Positions 28,177-61,541 of a DNA stretch of 64,000 nt are shown here, piece by piece. The stretch is from Umbilicaria muhlenbergii (taxonomy: Eukaryota; Ascomycota; Lecanoromycetes; Umbilicariales; Umbilicariaceae). Where the stretch lies: assembly GCA_000611775.1 (NCBI GenBank), contig KK106983.1, forward strand, positions 827,875 to 891,874, read 5' to 3'. Positions within the stretch are counted from its first letter, which is position 1, and the number at the start of each line of letters is the position of its first letter. The notes below the pieces were generated by a model. That model was not told the origin of the DNA. It was given only the letters and a program-made list of their open reading frames with translations, and did no database searches. The position numbers and the translations under genes were made by a program.

Positions 28177-29578
28177 ATGGTCAAGGAAACCAAGTTCTAT
28201 GACACGCTCGGGGTAGGTGGATACCTATGTAATGCGCGTTCGTAAAACGAAAACTAAATCCACTTCAGGTTGCTCCCACAGCTTCGGACGCCGAGCTTAA
28301 ATCGGCATACAAAAAAGGAGCGCTGAAGCATCATCCAGGTCAGTCGAGGTTTGAGAAGCGGCCGAACTATTTAGTGCTAATGGTGACAACCACAGACAAG
28401 AATGCCCACAACCCAGAAGCGGCCGAGAAGTTCAAAGACCTATCACATGCGTACGAGGTTCTATCCGATCCGCAGAAACGCTCAGTTTATGACCAATATG
28501 GCGAAGAAGGCTTGGAACAGGGCGGCGGCGCCGGCGGCATGAATGCAGAGGATCTCTTCTCACAATTCTTTGGTGGCGGTGGAGCTTTCGGAAGCATGTT
28601 CGGTGGTGGCATGCGTGAAACCGGCCCGAAGAAAGCCAGAACTATTCACCACGTTCACAAGGTCACCCTGGAGGACGTGTACCGTGGTAAGGTTTCGAAA
28701 CTTGCGCTGCAAAAGTCGATAATCTGTCCAGCTTGTGAAGGACGGGGAGGCAAAGAAGGTGCTGTCAAGGCTTGCAGTGGTTGCAACGGAGCGGGTATGA
28801 AGATGATGATGCGCCAGATGGGACCGATGATCCAGCGCTTCCAAACAGTCTGCCCCGATTGTCAAGGCGAAGGAGAAATCATCCGGGATAAAGACAGGTG
28901 CAAGAAGTGCGGTGGCAGGAAAACTATCAGTGAAAGAAAGGTTCTTCACGTCCACGTTGACAAGGGCATGAAGACCGGTGCCAAGATCGACTTCAAAGGT
29001 GATGGGGATCAGATGCCGGGCGTTCTTCCTGGAGATGTGCAGTTCGAGATTGAGATCAAACCACATTCACGGTTCCAGCGCAAAGATGATGACCTCTTCT
29101 ACCACGCTGAGATCGAGCTGCTTACCGCTCTTGCGGGCGGAACTGTTCACATAGAACACTTGGATGAAAGATGGTTGACTGTCCCCATCTATCCTGGCGA
29201 GGTTATCAGTCCAGGTAAGGGAATCCTATCCGTTCGAAGTTTGTCAAGCTCACTGCTGTAGATGAGGTCAAAATGATCCGAGGCCAGGGTATGCCATCTC
29301 TTAGGCACCATGAGTTTGGCAACCTTTATATCCAATTCGGTGTCAAATTCCCACCACCAAACTTCAATACACCGGAGAACATCGCCAAGCTCGAAGGGAT
29401 TCTGCCTCCTCGCAATACCCAAAGTGTACCTCCGGAGGATGCAATGATGGAAGATTTTGAACTTGAGGAAGTCGACTCAAGCGGTCAGCGAAGAGCTCAT
29501 GGTGCCACGTCGATGGATGAAGAGGACGAGGACGGTGTTCCAGCAGGCGCTGAGAGGATGCAATGCGCTTCCCAGTAA
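28177..29578 (+). CDS. ydj1: Hsp40 co-chaperone Ydj1/DnaJA type, farnesylated C-terminus
   Basis: Type I J-domain protein that stimulates Hsp70 ATPase in cytosolic folding and protein import. Exons 28177..28212, 28269..28338, 28396..29214 and 29262..29578 give 413 aa. The J domain carries KHHPDKN with the HPD motif split by intron 2. A Gly/Phe-rich stretch ([13 protein letters not shown]) follows, then four CxxCxGxG zinc repeats ([30 protein letters not shown]), and the two substrate-binding domains. The protein ends in CASQ, a CaaX farnesylation box that recruits Ydj1 to membranes. A heat-shock-element-like GAACATTC lies about 120 bp upstream of the ATG. Confidence 0.96.
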
Positions 29579-30291: not shown

Positions 30292-33200
30292 ATGAGGACG
30301 CTGTGCTCTCTGAATCGTCTCCATTATCTCCAGTCATGGCGCCTCGTCCTCCCCAGGCTTCACGTTCGAGGAGCGAAGTCGAAGACAACCTTGCAGCTCA
30401 AAGACCTCCCTCAGGGCATTCTTACGACTGACAATGTCGCTCACGAGGAAGAGGATGAGGGTCTTACATATCCCACTGTGGTGCAGCAGGCCAGGAATAA
30501 TATGCGGAAGTTTGAGAATTGTGTACTGTTGACACGAGTGGGAGGGTTCTACGAGGTTCACCCAACCCAACTTCACGGCAGCAGAACCGCGCTGATACTT
30601 CTGTAGCTCTACTTCGAGCATGCCGAAGAGTATGGACCTCTACTCAACCTTAAGATCGCTCAGAAGAGGACAACGGCCGGACCGGTTTCGATGGTTTAAC
30701 CTCTCTGGAAGCCCGCTACTACAACATTCAATACTGACCGTTCACTAGGCAGGATTTCCTTACTTCCAACTGGACCGGTTCCTAAAGATCTTGGTGCAAG
30801 ACCTCAACAAGTATGTGGCCATCAGCGAGGAGTACGCCAACAACGCTTCAGGCAAAGTCAAATCAGGTGGACTGCTATTTGACCGCAAGGTCGCGAGGAT
30901 CATATCGCCGGGAACATTGATTGACGAGAAGTTCATGGACCCTTATGATAACAACTTCCTCTTGGCCATACATCCTTTGGATAATGGTACCGATGTGGAT
31001 GCGAACATTGATGGGCTTCCAGCGGAGCTTATCAAAGATGCTCCAATGCCCAGACTCGCATCTATACTCGTCGGTCTTGCCTGGCTTGATCTTTCTACTG
31101 GTGATTTTTATACCCAACCCACGACTATGGGGGCATTGTCGTCTATTATTGCTCGGATTGGAGCGAAGGAGATAGTACTCAACAAAACTCTCGATAGTGT
31201 CGTCGAGGGACACATTTTAGCAATACTTGAGCATGATCGCCACCTGGTGACATACCACCGTGCTCACCTGGAAGCGCCGTCAATGTCCGATTGGGTGCCT
31301 ATGCTGGAGGTTCCTGTATCTGCTGAGACGCAAGCGGCGTTCAGTGGAGAGGAGGTGGCAGCCGGGAGTCTTCTCTTGAGTTATGTTGATGAGCGGCTGC
31401 AAGGCCTGGGAATCAAGTTGCAACCACCGGTTCAGAGATCTGGTAAAGAGACGATGGGCATTGACAGGAATAGTATGCGGGGATTGGAAGTACTGGAAAC
31501 CTCGAGGGACGGGATTAGCGGGGGCAAAGGTAGCTTGTTGCATGTTATACGGAGAACTGTCACGAAAAGCGGTACACGTCTACTGAAAGATTGGCTTGGT
31601 ATGGTTTATGTCCCATTTCACCAACAGAGAGACTTCTTTACATGAGTCCCACATCTGCGTCTGTTTCTATCCGTTGAGTATATCAAGATCACTGACTGGT
31701 ACACTGTAGCTTCCCCCTCTACATCGCTCTCTATAATCAATTCTCGATTAGACCTTGTCGAAAATTTTTTCGATGATCCATCATTGAGAGAGGAGATTGT
31801 GAGCATGCTCCGCCGTAGCTACGACGCACAGCGTCTCGTTCAGAAATTTGCTTTGGGCAGAGGTGACGCCGATGATCTTGTTAGCTTACAGCGAACGATT
31901 GAAGCGACCAGAGGGATTGCCAACATTCTTCATGGATACAACTCGTCCCCCGGATCGCCTTCGAAAGCACCAGGTGACGATGTTGACAGAAATTCATGTT
32001 TGCAGAAGTTGAGCAGCCGTTTATCTCTTAGCGGCCCAAGTGCCCTTGCTGCACGAATCGCCGAGGTCATCGACGAAGAAGGACTCTCAGAGAGTCATCG
32101 TATGGAAGAAAGCGAAGGTACAGACATGTTATCGTTGGCGCAAGAAGTGCTGAGCAGCGAAGGCTCTTCTGAGGACATGGAAGCTCTGTCTCGGGTTGTG
32201 CGAAGCAAAGCCAGCACCAAAGCCGCCAAAGAGCAAGACGTGGAGTCTGAAGATACGTGGATCATGCGCACAAGTGCAAGCCCTACATTGCAGCGCCTTC
32301 ACGACAACCTAGCGGAGTTACGTCAAGAAAAGGCCAGCCTCACAGCAGAGCTGAGACAGCAACTAGGCGCACAGAGCTTATCCTTACGATGGACACCCGG
32401 ACTTGGGCACATCTGCCACATCAAGGGCGCCAAGGACGTCCGCACATCGCTCGAATCCTTCGCCAACGTTCGCAGCGTCAGCTCCTCCAAATCCACCCGT
32501 TCCTTCCACCTCTCCTCCTGGACCACCCTCGGCACCACCATCGACCAAACCAAACTCCAAATCCGCGCCGAAGAACAACGCGTCTTCCAAGAGCTACGCC
32601 AGCTCGTCATCCGCAACCTAGTAAAACTCCGCCGCAACGCCGCCGTCCTAGACGAACTCGACATCGCCTGCGCCTTCGCCCTCCTCGCCCACGACCAATC
32701 CTACGTCCGCCCCCTCCTCAACCTCACCACAACCCACCAAATCATCGCCGGCCGCCACCCGACCGTCAAACAGGGCCTCCAAGAACAAGGCCGCGAGTTC
32801 GTCAGCAACGACTGCCTCGTCGGCTCCCCCGACCGCATCTGGCTCATCACCGGACCCAACATGGCCGGCAAATCCACCTTCCTCCGCCAAAACGCCCTCA
32901 TCACCATCCTCGCGCAAACGGGCTCCTTCGTCCCCGCCGCCCACGCCGCCCTCGGCATCGTCGACCAGCTCTTCAGCCGCGTGGGCGCGGGCGACAACCT
33001 GTTTGCGGACCAGTCGACGTTTATGGTCGAGATGCTCGAGACGGCGCACATACTGCGGCATGCGACGCAGCGGTCCTTTGTGGTCATGGACGAGGTGGGC
33101 AGGGGCACGACGCCCGAGGATGGGGTGGCCGTCGGGTTCGCGGCGCTGGAGTATTTGTGGAGGGGGGTGCGGTGCAGGACGCTGTTTGCGACGCATTTTC

Positions 33201-33547
33201 ACCGACTGGCGGATATGACGGCGGGGTGGGAGGGGGTCGGGTGTTTTTGTACGGATGTGAGGGAGGGGGAAGGGGGGGGGTGGGCGTATGTGCATCGGTT
33301 GAGGAGGGGGGTGAATCGGAAGTCGCATGCGCTGAAGGTGGCGAGGTTGGCGGGTAGGTCGTTCGTGGGGAGTGAGTTTTTGTGGGGTTGCATGGCTGAT
33401 GGTTGAATAGGTATTCCGGAGTCGGCTATTGAGAGTGCGAGGCGGGTGCTTGAATCGTTTGAGTCGACATCGCGCGGGGGTATACATGAGACCGCTGGTG
33501 AAGACGCAGCGGATGTTCGACGAGTGGCTGGGGAAGAAAAGAGTTGA
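30292..33547 (+). CDS. msh1: Mitochondrial MutS homologue Msh1
   Basis: DNA mismatch-binding ATPase acting on mitochondrial DNA. Exons 30292..30555, 30607..30693, 30749..31598, 31710..33353 and 33411..33547 give 993 aa. An upstream in-frame ATG at 30199 would add 31 residues. The N-terminus MRTLCSLNRLHYLQSWRL looks like a mitochondrial presequence. The mismatch-recognition motif is VGGFYE, followed by LYFEHAEEYG after intron 1. The blocks GGLLFDRKVARIISPGTLIDE and KSGTRLLKDWL match Msh1. The ATPase has Walker A GPNMAGKST near residue 780, Walker B VVMDEVGRGT, and FATHFHRL. Introns 1 and 2 use weaker GTTCAC and GTTTAA donors. Codon use shifts abruptly to C-ending near 32430 and to G-ending near 33000. 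Confidence 0.94.
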
Positions 33548-33838: not shown

Positions 33839-34075
33839 TCACTGAACCTCACACTTGTCCTGGAATTTCTTCTTCTTCTTGTCCTTGCCGCTTTCTTTCT
33901 CCGTCATCCGCTGCGGGTACGATTCCGCAGCCGCACCCTTCGCCATCGCACCGCCCGAAGTACCATTACTGGCCGCTCCAGCTCCAGCCCCAGCCCCGGC
34001 ATCATTCCTCACCGTCTTCTGTTCCGCACCCTGCGCTCCTCCCGCCGCCGCAGCCCCGCTCTCAGGACCATCTAG
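33839..34075 (-). other. In-frame extension after a leaky-type TGA-CTA stop in the flavodoxin-like gene
   Basis: Directly after the TGA at 34078-34076 the same frame stays open for 78 codons and ends at a TGA (33841-33839). It begins CTA GAT, so the stop context is TGA CTA G. The tail is alanine- and glycine-rich, then turns charged (ESYPQRMTEKESGKDKKKKK) and ends FQDKCEVQ. Codon composition is as coding-like as the gene itself. It could also be joined in frame by removing 34122..34072, a 51-nt segment with a GTAAGG donor and a CTAG acceptor. A recent nonsense mutation is the third explanation. Confidence 0.6.
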
Positions 34076-35008
34076 TCATGTGGAGAAGTTGACCTTGGAG
34101 ACAGCCTGGTAAAAGGCCTTACCCTGAATCTGAGCGAGCTCGAGTTCCTTGTTGGTGGGTTGGCGAGATCCGTCACCGCCCTATCGGTCCCAAACAACCA
34201 AACGTCAGTATTCAGTCATACATTCTCACCCGGTCGACATCGGCCGCATGTGGGAGAGACCACCAACCGCAAAAGTGCCCGCTCCCCACGGACTCCCGCC
34301 CCTGACCTCGCTCAAATCGCCCAAGATCGGAAACGCAGTCTTATACCCCAACGGCACATAAATCATGCCATGATGCGCCATCGTGCTCATGGCCGCAATC
34401 ACGGTGCTTTCCTGCCCGCCGCCCATGGTGCCGGTGCTGACGAAGACGCCGGCGTATTTGCCCCAGTAGGCGCCGCTGGCCCATTGCGCGCCCGTGTGGT
34501 CCCAGAAGGCTTTCCATTGCGCGGGGAAGTTGCCGTAGCGGGTGGGGATGCCGAAGAGGAAGGCGTCGTATTTTTCAAGGGTTTTGGGGTCGATATTGGG
34601 GATCGAGGAGTCTTTGGGGGCGGCGTGCATTTTGGCCAGGACTTCTTCGGGGAGGGTCTCGGGGACTCTGAGAGGGAGAGAGGGGTGGAGGGTTAGCGGG
34701 TGGGTGGGGGCTTGGTTTGTTGGGTGTGTGGTTGATGGTGCGCGGAGGGGAAGAGGTGCTCACTGGAAGAGGTCGGCGGTGCCGCCTGCAGCTTCGATGC
34801 CGGCTTTTTCGGCTTCGGCCAGCTTGTGGATGTGGCCGTACATGGAGTACTGGGAGTTTGGTATAAGCGTTAGTATTGAAGATGAAAAGACGGGGAACAG
34901 TCTTGCGCCGCGATTGAGGGGCCAACTAGACGAGGAGTCGTGTTCCTGGATAGCGGGGTGCCTTGGAGGGGCAACACTCACGAAGATGATTGCAATCTTG
35001 GGCGCCAT
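34076..35008 (-). CDS. Flavodoxin-like NAD(P)H:quinone reductase (WrbA/Pst2/Alt a 7 family)
   Basis: FMN protein that reduces quinones by two electrons and protects against oxidative stress; yeast relatives are Pst2, Rfs1 and Ycp4. Exons 34982..35008, 34764..34849, 34268..34667 and 34076..34180 give 205 aa, the usual length. Family blocks seen are [16 protein letters not shown] across intron 1, [40 protein letters not shown] and [19 protein letters not shown]. The C-terminal helix ends [15 protein letters not shown] at the TGA, just where short homologues end. That stop lies in a TGA CTA G context and is followed by an open tail (separate entry). A TACTAAC branch site marks intron 1. Confidence 0.94.
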
Positions 35009-36189: not shown

Positions 36190-39436
<3,247 letters not shown>

Positions 39437-40032
39437 ATGGTCACCACTCTGACGAGATATGTGCAATCAAACAAATGCGCCTGATCTTATACAGGCAAAC
39501 CGAGTAAATCTCTTCCCGTCGTTTTATCATTGTCGTTGTCTGTTTTCCAGACTTGCATTACTGTAAGAGCAGACGTCTTAATGTTTCGAGATAAAGTTGG
39601 CACTAGGCTAGGAAGGGCAAGGTCTGACATGGTCGATCGTTTAACCCGAGCAGAGCCAAGGTACTCGAAAACGGCCCTGACGTCCGCGGTGCTTCCTCCC
39701 TGCCCTCCAGCTGCGAGTGTGCACAGTCGGACTCGGCTCAGACCCCCTTGGGTGCAAGCACAGTAAGATCACCCATCTGTCCAAGGCGGAAGCTTGTCCT
39801 CTCTGGCTTGGTGGAGCTTGCACCACTTCCTGTGGGTCTTTGCGAAGGATGTGGGGGGATACCGGGTAGTCGTGCTCTCTTTCCCCCAGGAGCCGGCCGC
39901 CTCCTGGGAAGAGCCGGGAGAGCACACAAGAACAAGGTACGGAAATACCTTACCTAACCTCAAGCGTGTGAAGTTATCGGTCTCTCGTCATCAAGGTCTG
40001 GTGTCCACGATGTGCCCATCTTCACGTATTCC
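39437..40032. other. Intergenic region upstream of the helicase gene
   Basis: About 600 bp between the helicase start and a small convergent-side gene. Overlapping short frames at 39640-39960 on both strands look non-coding. Confidence 0.35.
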
Positions 40033-60068: not shown

Positions 60069-61541
60069 TCAACTCACAGTCTCCACCTCCTCCCAATCAC
60101 CACCGCTTTCGCCCACCTCCTCCACTTCCCCCACCACCGCCCCCTTCCCCTCCCCCTGCAACCCCAGCATCCACCCCACCAACCCATGAGGCACCCACGT
60201 GCCCACAAAATCATAAATCCTACTCCCCCTCCCCACCCACCTGATCTCCCTCCCCTCCCTCCCCGTCAAAACATCAAAAACCCCATTATGCAACTCCCTC
60301 AGCGAACTCCCCTTCACATGCCCGCCACTCACACCGGCCAAATGCGCCTGCTGCGCCATATACTCCCGCGCATACTGCGCTCTTGTCTGCGCATCCCAGC
60401 TCTGCACGTCCTCGCGCAAAGCGAGGTCTCGCGGGCGCTGAAGTTGCGATTTCGGGAAGCCCGGGATGCTGCTGTAGTCGAAGTTGCCGAGTTTGAACTG
60501 GTGGACGCGGAGACCCTGGCTCGCGGCTTCGGCGCGGAGAGTGTGTGCGTAGGCGGAGATGGCGGCGGCGATGACGCTTTCGGGGGCGTGGAAGGCGGGC
60601 GTGAGGGAGGGGATGATGCTGGGGGTGAGGATGAGGACTTTGCTTGATGGGGAGGCGGTGAGGAGGGGGAGGAAGGCGTGGAGGGTTGTGAATGGGGCTA
60701 GGAGTTGCGTGTTTAGGATGTCGGACCAGGTTGAGGCGGAGAGGGCTGGGAGGGGGCCGGTGGGGATGGTGCTGGGTGGGGGTGGAAGGAGAAGTAGGCC
60801 GCTGAGGTGGAGGGTGTGGGGTGGTGCGGAAGGGATGGGGATGTGAGATGCGGAGAGGTGGGCGGAGAAGCGAGAGATGGTTTCTTCGGTTGCTGATGGC
60901 TGAGGGGAGGATTTTAGATAAGGCTAGTTGGCGGGAAGGAGAGACTTACGGATGTGATGTCCAAGTGCAAGGGGTGGATATCAGCCCGTGATTCGGCTTG
61001 GACAAGCTGTTCTTCAGAAAGTGTGCTGACGGGGATGTAGACAATGAATCCCCGACGCTCCAGATCCAAGGCGATGGACCTTGTTAGGGGCGAGTGTGGA
61101 GAACCTGCCACAACAACGACCTCTGTCCTAGCGCCGTTGGCTGCTCGGCGTACTCGTCTCTTCTTGTGATATGACCTTCTTCGCCGCCATATAATGAATG
61201 TTCCGGTCCCCACGAAAGCGATGACAGCAGCAGTGACTGCTCGATGTTGCGAGACCCAAACTTGAGCGCGCTCAAGGTAACCGAGCGGAACCGGAGGAAC
61301 GAAGCGCTTTGGAGCTGGGGCGGCAGGTTTCATGGAATTGGGAAGCCATGAGGACGCTTGAAGAGCCTCTCTCAACGACGACGCGACGGACTCAAAGTGT
61401 CGGTCTATGGACTCGGCGATTTCGAGGGAGTAATGCTTGACGTCATTGGGTATGGAGGAAAGCTAGGGTATCTTTAGCATGGCCATATTCTAGGCGTGGG
61501 TTACATACGATATCAAGGAAATACTGATCGTCACTCGACAT
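60069..61541 (-). CDS. DUF1776 fungal protein (Rossmann/SDR-like, membrane-anchored)
   Basis: Fungal family related to yeast Ysc83 with no settled function. Exons 61509..61541, 60950..61462 and 60069..60899 give 458 aa. A hydrophobic segment (AVTAAVIAFVGTGTFIIW) near residues 95-113 is flanked by basic residues (RRRRSYHKKRRVRR), which fits a single membrane anchor, perhaps mitochondrial outer membrane. The following VVVVAGSPHSPLTRSIALDLERRGF resembles the Rossmann dinucleotide loop of short-chain dehydrogenases, but the glycine pattern is degenerate. SVIAAAISAYAHTLRAEAASQGLRV replaces the SDR catalytic helix without a clear YxxxK, so enzymatic activity is doubtful. Divergent from wss1. Confidence 0.85.

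Follow-up and report, generated by a model that had tools for sequence, protein, structure and literature searches.

The quinone reductase gene described here lies on the minus strand of a 64,000-nucleotide stretch of Umbilicaria muhlenbergii DNA (contig KK106983.1, positions 827,875 to 891,874; hereafter the window), and it raises a question: does the protein always end where its first stop codon says that it should? The stop is TGA at 34078-34076 on the minus strand, and 78 sense codons separate it from the next in-frame TGA. The original prediction for this locus observed that the stop is followed by CTA GAT and by a frame that stays open for 78 codons, and proposed that a small fraction of ribosomes reads through it; the coordinates and counts proved exact (Table 1). 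What, then, would a cell gain from a stretch of protein placed behind a stop, and by what route would it be reached?

The enzyme that terminates at this stop is the natural point of departure. Joining four exons of the minus strand gives a protein of 205 residues, which matches over its full length the family models NF002999 (218 bits against a cutoff of 141) and TIGR01755 (214.3 bits against a cutoff of 132.5), and which aligns with yeast Pst2 (PDB 5mp4, 198 residues) at E 6.3e-79 and 62% identity such that residues 3-200 of the query face residues 2-197 of Pst2. These full-length matches above curated cutoffs place the predicted gene product among the WrbA/Pst2-type NAD(P)H:quinone oxidoreductases, and homology suggests that the 205-residue enzyme would carry out FMN-dependent quinone reduction. 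The statement that homologues end at this same helix holds for yeast Pst2 (5mp4), and it fails for Candida Ycp4, a flavodoxin-like quinone reductase with a C-terminal extension of ~90 residues that ends in a CAAX box (PMC4556627). Searches of bacterial, archaeal and viral collections, whose misses carry no information about fungi, gave the following: the 121-residue protein of exon 3 found one locus in viral contigs (60% identity over query residues 99-121) and 0 of 55 candidate stretches were kept in bacterial and archaeal genome contigs; a query built from a two-sequence alignment retained 0 of 56 stretches in viral contigs and 0 of 506 in bacterial and archaeal genome contigs. Plasmid records gave 270 matches, every one below 60% identity, and the matches listed are bacterial WrbA.

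Table 1 Features of the quinone reductase locus and of the Ydj1 orthologue, in window coordinates.
Feature	Positions	Strand	Basis or remark
Exon 1, start ATG	34982..35008	-	joined-exon translation matches Pst2/WrbA models
Exon 2	34764..34849	-	flanking introns with donors GTGAGT and GTGAGC and branch sites CTAAC
Exon 3, bulk of flavodoxin fold	34268..34667	-	
Exon 4, TGA stop included	34076..34180	-	the gene model has its last exon begin at 34180
TGACTAG, stop in weak-termination context UGA CUA G	34072..34078	-	context as described in PMC4207609
In-frame tail, 78 codons	33842..34075	-	coding score and codon-position bias
Lysine stretch GKDKKKKKFQDK, with seven Lys among 12 residues	33854..33889	-	
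CEVQ, candidate CaaX prenylation box at tail end	33842..33853	-	rules as given in PMC1175975 and PMC10320760
TGA stop closing the extended frame	33839..33841	-	
Rival candidate intron, 51 nt, GTAAGG...CTAG	34072..34122	-	in-frame donor and acceptor, no YTRAY
Ydj1/MAS5 orthologue ending CASQ	28233-29578	+	

The three introns of the gene carry branch sites CTAAC at -21, CTAAC at -26 and CTGAC at -25, respectively. Intron 3 (34267-34181) has the unusual donor GTTGGT, which was selected because it is the sole choice that keeps a Pst2-like frame and length. A donor closer to consensus, GTGAGA, lies downstream at 34229, and splicing from it (alternative intron 34229-34181) would produce a form of 219 residues whose C-terminus is frameshifted and stops at the TAG within TGACTAG, which means that the heptamer closes two frames.

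What distinguishes the stop of this gene from an ordinary one? It matches the context UGA CUA G at all seven bases. UGA CU is described as sufficient for efficient readthrough in U. maydis, and an A after it raises readthrough in HeLa cells, with the subsequent G called common (PMC4207609). Moreover, the base at -1 is A, which is reported as favourable for readthrough in yeast (PMC12233894). The heptamer itself is not enriched in the window, where five copies were found against 5.86 expected by shuffling, and downstream of the other four the frame stays open for 3, 6, 10 and 45 codons. Just 5 of the 2137 TGA trinucleotides on the two strands of the window continue as CTAG, and therefore the chance of finding the context at a given TGA stop is about 1 in 430. 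No stable RNA structure was found downstream of the stop (three overlapping folds gave z of 0.84, -0.03 and 0.65 against shuffles), and an RNA structure as readthrough enhancer was set aside since no fold was more stable than shuffles. Sequence features expected of functional readthrough are found together at this locus: a stop in a UGA CU(A)(G) context, an open frame of 78 codons behind it, and the end CEVQ.

One hypothesis is that the TGA arose lately by nonsense mutation, or reflects a miscalled base of the assembly, and that the tail is the constitutive end of a Ycp4-like protein, in the past or in sister strains. The CAAX-ended extension of Candida Ycp4 is indeed described without such a stop (PMC4556627). 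However, a random nonsense change would seldom land in a seven-base context that so few TGAs of the window share, and the stop falls just beyond the end of the Pst2 alignment, which makes a chance lesion or error improbable. Another hypothesis is that A-to-I RNA editing turns the stop into a sense codon during sexual development; in F. graminearum and N. crassa, editing that removes stop codons is reported for hundreds of genes (PMC11156358). The editing described there strongly prefers U before the edited A and turns UAG into UGG. In the quinone reductase gene, by contrast, the A of the stop UGA follows a G, and TGACTAG contains a UAG only out of frame. We give editing next to no weight.

Is the tail itself protein? 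The open frame alone is weak evidence, because one antisense frame across the tail is also free of stops (score -0.082). It could be argued that the tail is merely a GC-rich, untranslated 3' region that is open by chance and ends in a CaaX-like box by coincidence: the tail is G-rich and of low complexity, an antisense frame is open as well, and TGACTAG occurs at chance frequency. What speaks against an accidental opening is the frame-specific signal that the region carries. Codon usage for the score was derived from 23 long ORFs of the window, each read from stop to stop; 19 of these match Pfam at E up to 0.001, one weakly, and the other four may include non-coding sequence. The tail's own frame has a mean codon log-odds of 0.147 and the remaining five range from -0.141 to 0.031, in agreement with the coding-like composition first noted for the tail. 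Base shuffles of the tail (2000) have a mean of -0.025 and a standard deviation of 0.037, which puts the tail ~4.6 standard deviations higher. The codon-position bias of the whole tail is matched by 0 of 5000 shuffles, and that of its last 40 codons gives p=0.001. By comparison, the 234 bases beyond the tail contain two to three stops in each of the six frames and none of the coding signal of the tail. Pfam and NCBIfam yield no match to the tail, and the idea that it is a separate gene was set aside by judgement, as it carries on the frame of the enzyme. The tail is likely a genuine C-terminus of the quinone reductase that is expressed conditionally.

What would such a C-terminus contribute? 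The tail ends in GKDKKKKKFQDK-CEVQ, that is, in a lysine-rich stretch followed by a candidate CaaX prenylation box. Membrane proteins like K-Ras4B have a lysine stretch followed by a CaaX box in this arrangement. This ending went unnoticed in the original prediction, and the tail is better supported than was known then, because both elements stand at its very end. Within CEVQ, the Cys is fourth from the C-terminus, V occupies a2 and Gln occupies X, as in CASQ, and the segment KDKKKKKFQDK that precedes the Cys is hydrophilic save one Phe, in keeping with the flexible linker of ~11 residues described in PMC1175975. The a1 position is taken by Glu, and this counts against prenylation by the rule of the PrePS authors, for whom negative charges at a1 and a2 are apparently incompatible with the modification (PMC1175975). 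A full yeast CXXX screen describes wide tolerance at a1; Asp was restrictive there in the Ydj1-based set, and in the Ras-based set Glu at a1 counted as a negative pattern when combined with a2 (PMC10320760). We consider the predicted prenylation of CEVQ plausible, in a box that is not ideal, and the tail a candidate membrane anchor.

How often would such an ending arise by accident? The counts that follow are descriptive only, because the CaaX rule was drawn up after the tail had been seen and would miss the CASQ of Ydj1: the six frames of the window contain 1920 stretches that run for 20 codons or more up to a stop, of which 65 have a Cys at -4, three have a strict CaaX box and one, namely this tail, has a strict CaaX box together with at least six basic residues in the preceding 12; under a relaxed rule, with Cys at -4, at least six basic residues and a2 and X left free, three stretches pass, and the two besides this tail end in CMRV and CARP; and 200,000 residue shuffles of the tail give strict CaaX in 0.048% and CaaX with the basic stretch at the frame end in 0/200,000. 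The shuffles speak against a coincidental CaaX, as the coding score and codon-position bias speak against a chance-open frame, and an untranslated origin of the tail is quite improbable.

Does the fungus make use of boxes of this kind? The window itself offers a control. The product of an ORF at 28233-29258 (+) is a DnaJ protein; among solved structures, human DNAJA2 (7zhs) and yeast MAS5/Ydj1 (1nlt) come closest to it, and removal of a 47-nt intron (29215-29261) yields an ungapped alignment to 1nlt across the junction and a protein that ends in CASQ. Yeast studies use Ydj1 to report on farnesyltransferase, and CASQ is given as one example of a box (PMC10320760). Since the orthologue in the window ends CASQ, a Cxx-Gln prenylation box is plausibly in use in this organism. 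The orthologue contains, in addition, a 57-nt intron (28339-28395) that can be read in frame without a stop.

The short intron of the Ydj1 orthologue also bears on a different route to the tail. An alternative hypothesis is that the stop is not read through at all and is instead spliced out as an exitron, such that removal of a 51-nt intron from some transcripts deletes the TGA and its retention gives the short enzyme. The acceptor of this candidate coincides with the CTAG of the stop motif, a feature that was overlooked when readthrough was first proposed. Both the donor, G|GTAAGG, and the acceptor, CTAG|AT, are in frame, and the removal would join ...LAQIQ to DGPESG... in frame to give a CaaX-ended protein of 267 residues. 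In the training ORFs, an in-phase GTAAG 45-110 nt upstream is found for only 4 of 585 YAG sites, and fungi are described as employing splicing as well as readthrough for dual targeting (PMC4207609, PMC9549241). The candidate has no YTRAY branch site and only a YTNAY at -39, whereas the 47-nt Ydj1 intron has CTCAC at -10. Nevertheless, the homology-supported Ydj1 intron shares the same donor hexamer, has a TAG|ATG acceptor and likewise lacks YTRAY, so that the objection that the candidate is too short and without YTRAY is weakened, and we do not use it alone. Around the stop there are 34 GT/AG pairs with lengths of 40-200 nt divisible by three, and the detailed analysis covered the 51-nt pair. 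The rest, among them four pairs that join this GTAAGG to acceptors lying 84 to 147 nt downstream of it, were discarded by eye for a weak donor, a purine-rich acceptor or the loss of the GDGSRQ part.

What decides between leaking past the stop and splicing it out? Splicing would delete a conserved C-terminal segment that readthrough would keep: the spliced form aligns with NF002999 over 187/200 positions at 211.7 bits, against 198/200 at 218 bits for the 205-residue form, both far above the cutoff. Moreover, the donor sits on Gly-Lys codons that are common to Pst2, and GGT AAG has a probability of ~0.135 under the codon usage of the window; the pair would then be in phase with the stop context, and the presence of a splice donor is for this reason not very surprising. 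Finally, splicing leaves the exact TGA CTA G context unexplained. We regard the exitron as possible, if unlikely, and weigh readthrough as roughly three times as probable as splicing, which is a judgement and not a computed posterior. All explanations outside readthrough and splicing are, taken jointly, distinctly unlikely. Readthrough at UGA CUA G thus stands as the best explanation, as originally proposed, with new support for the tail and with a CaaX signal and a rival intron that the proposal had not considered.

We hypothesize, with somewhat better than even confidence, that one gene gives rise to a short Pst2-like form and, by UGA readthrough, to a minor prenylated, Ycp4-like membrane form. 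Most ribosomes would terminate at the UGA and release the 205-residue Pst2-like NAD(P)H:quinone oxidoreductase, while a minority would decode the UGA of UGA CUA G and add 79 residues: first the one inserted at the UGA, next a flexible linker rich in Gly and Ala, and finally a lysine-rich patch and CEVQ. The Cys of the tail would be prenylated, most likely farnesylated, and the prenyl group together with the lysines would tether the enzyme to the plasma membrane or to another acidic membrane, where it could maintain ubiquinone in the reduced state. In its full form, with programmed readthrough and a single gene that supplies both a soluble quinone reductase and a prenylated, membrane-anchored minor form, Pst2 and Ycp4 in one, we put the model at an even chance. 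One gene would then furnish the two enzymes that are encoded by separate genes in yeasts. The oxygen-dependence of termination discussed in PMC4207609 prompts the speculation that oxygen or oxidative stress might increase the leak, at a time when the need to reduce membrane ubiquinone is greatest. A splice variant could do nearly the same as the leaky stop, namely provide a soluble and a membrane-bound enzyme.

How does this arrangement compare with known systems? Ycp4 of Candida albicans and Saccharomyces belongs to the same enzyme family, and its C-terminal extension ends in CAAX in Candida (PMC4556627). It is, however, a separate gene with a constitutive tail, whereas here the ordinary product is not CAAX-extended, a stop codon parts enzyme from tail, and the tail contains one Cys only, besides its lysine-rich stretch. 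In yeast, Ycp4 figures in a list of proteins that Erf2 S-acylates (PMC5364179). Candida flavodoxin-like quinone reductases are tied to oxidative-stress resistance and are reported, as a family, to act at the plasma membrane (PMC4556627), which is in line with a membrane-anchored form of this enzyme and yet implies that the tail may be dispensable for that location. Two homologues, Pst2 and Ycp4, are reported in Alternaria brassicicola (PMC6916069), and the fungus studied here may therefore own a separate Ycp4 gene too.

The same UGA CUA (G) context with a hidden C-terminal signal is described for U. maydis PGK and for mammalian LDHB and MDH1, several of which are dehydrogenase- or oxidoreductase-type enzymes, and in these cases one gene gives dual localisation (PMC4207609, PMC9549241). 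Their signal is the peroxisomal PTS1 and their readthrough is measured, whereas the signal here would be a CaaX box with a lysine stretch and readthrough is predicted. In Drosophila, the readthrough extension of Syx17 carries a predicted farnesyltransferase signal, as proposed here; Syx17 is an animal SNARE and no enzyme, and its signal was predicted by PrePS (PMC3840789). Fungal SKI7/HBS1 and PTC7 are cases in which one gene makes two proteins where other fungi use two paralogues, and they rely on alternative splicing, unlike the readthrough proposed here; the main text of that source makes no mention of PST2, YCP4, CaaX or readthrough (PMC3597508).

Literature searches joining readthrough with quinone and flavodoxin-like proteins, or farnesyltransferase and CAAX with Aspergillus and quinone oxidoreductase, returned nothing, and a readthrough-derived or CaaX-tailed quinone reductase of a filamentous fungus was absent from the literature matches listed, a scope that excludes most subscription journals. 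The nearest precedent found is the Syx17 extension (PMC3840789). Human readthrough extensions have been screened for prenylation sites, in work that focused on PTS1 (PMC4359377). The hidden signals described for fungal UGA CUA readthrough are peroxisomal (PMC4207609, PMC9549241), and a hidden prenylation signal, if true, would carry the principle beyond organelle import, to the anchoring of proteins in membranes, and would account for a membrane quinone reductase supplied from the gene of a soluble enzyme. Dual targeting through a hidden CaaX tail would still hold if splicing were the route, and the 3' regions of fungal genes are worth screening for hidden CaaX boxes.

Several neighbouring genes were recognised in the window. 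A MutS-type mismatch-repair gene (30749-33403, +; two ORFs with domains I, II, III and V) adjoins the 3' end of the quinone reductase gene and is oriented towards it. On the other side, ORFs at 36416-39466 (-) contain a POLQ-type helical domain, DUF7898 and a DEAD helicase domain, and probably form one DNA helicase/polymerase-theta-like gene. Further away, 60072-60923 (-) encodes DUF1776, in line with a fungal origin of the window; Pfam describes DUF1776 as a fungal family of unknown function.
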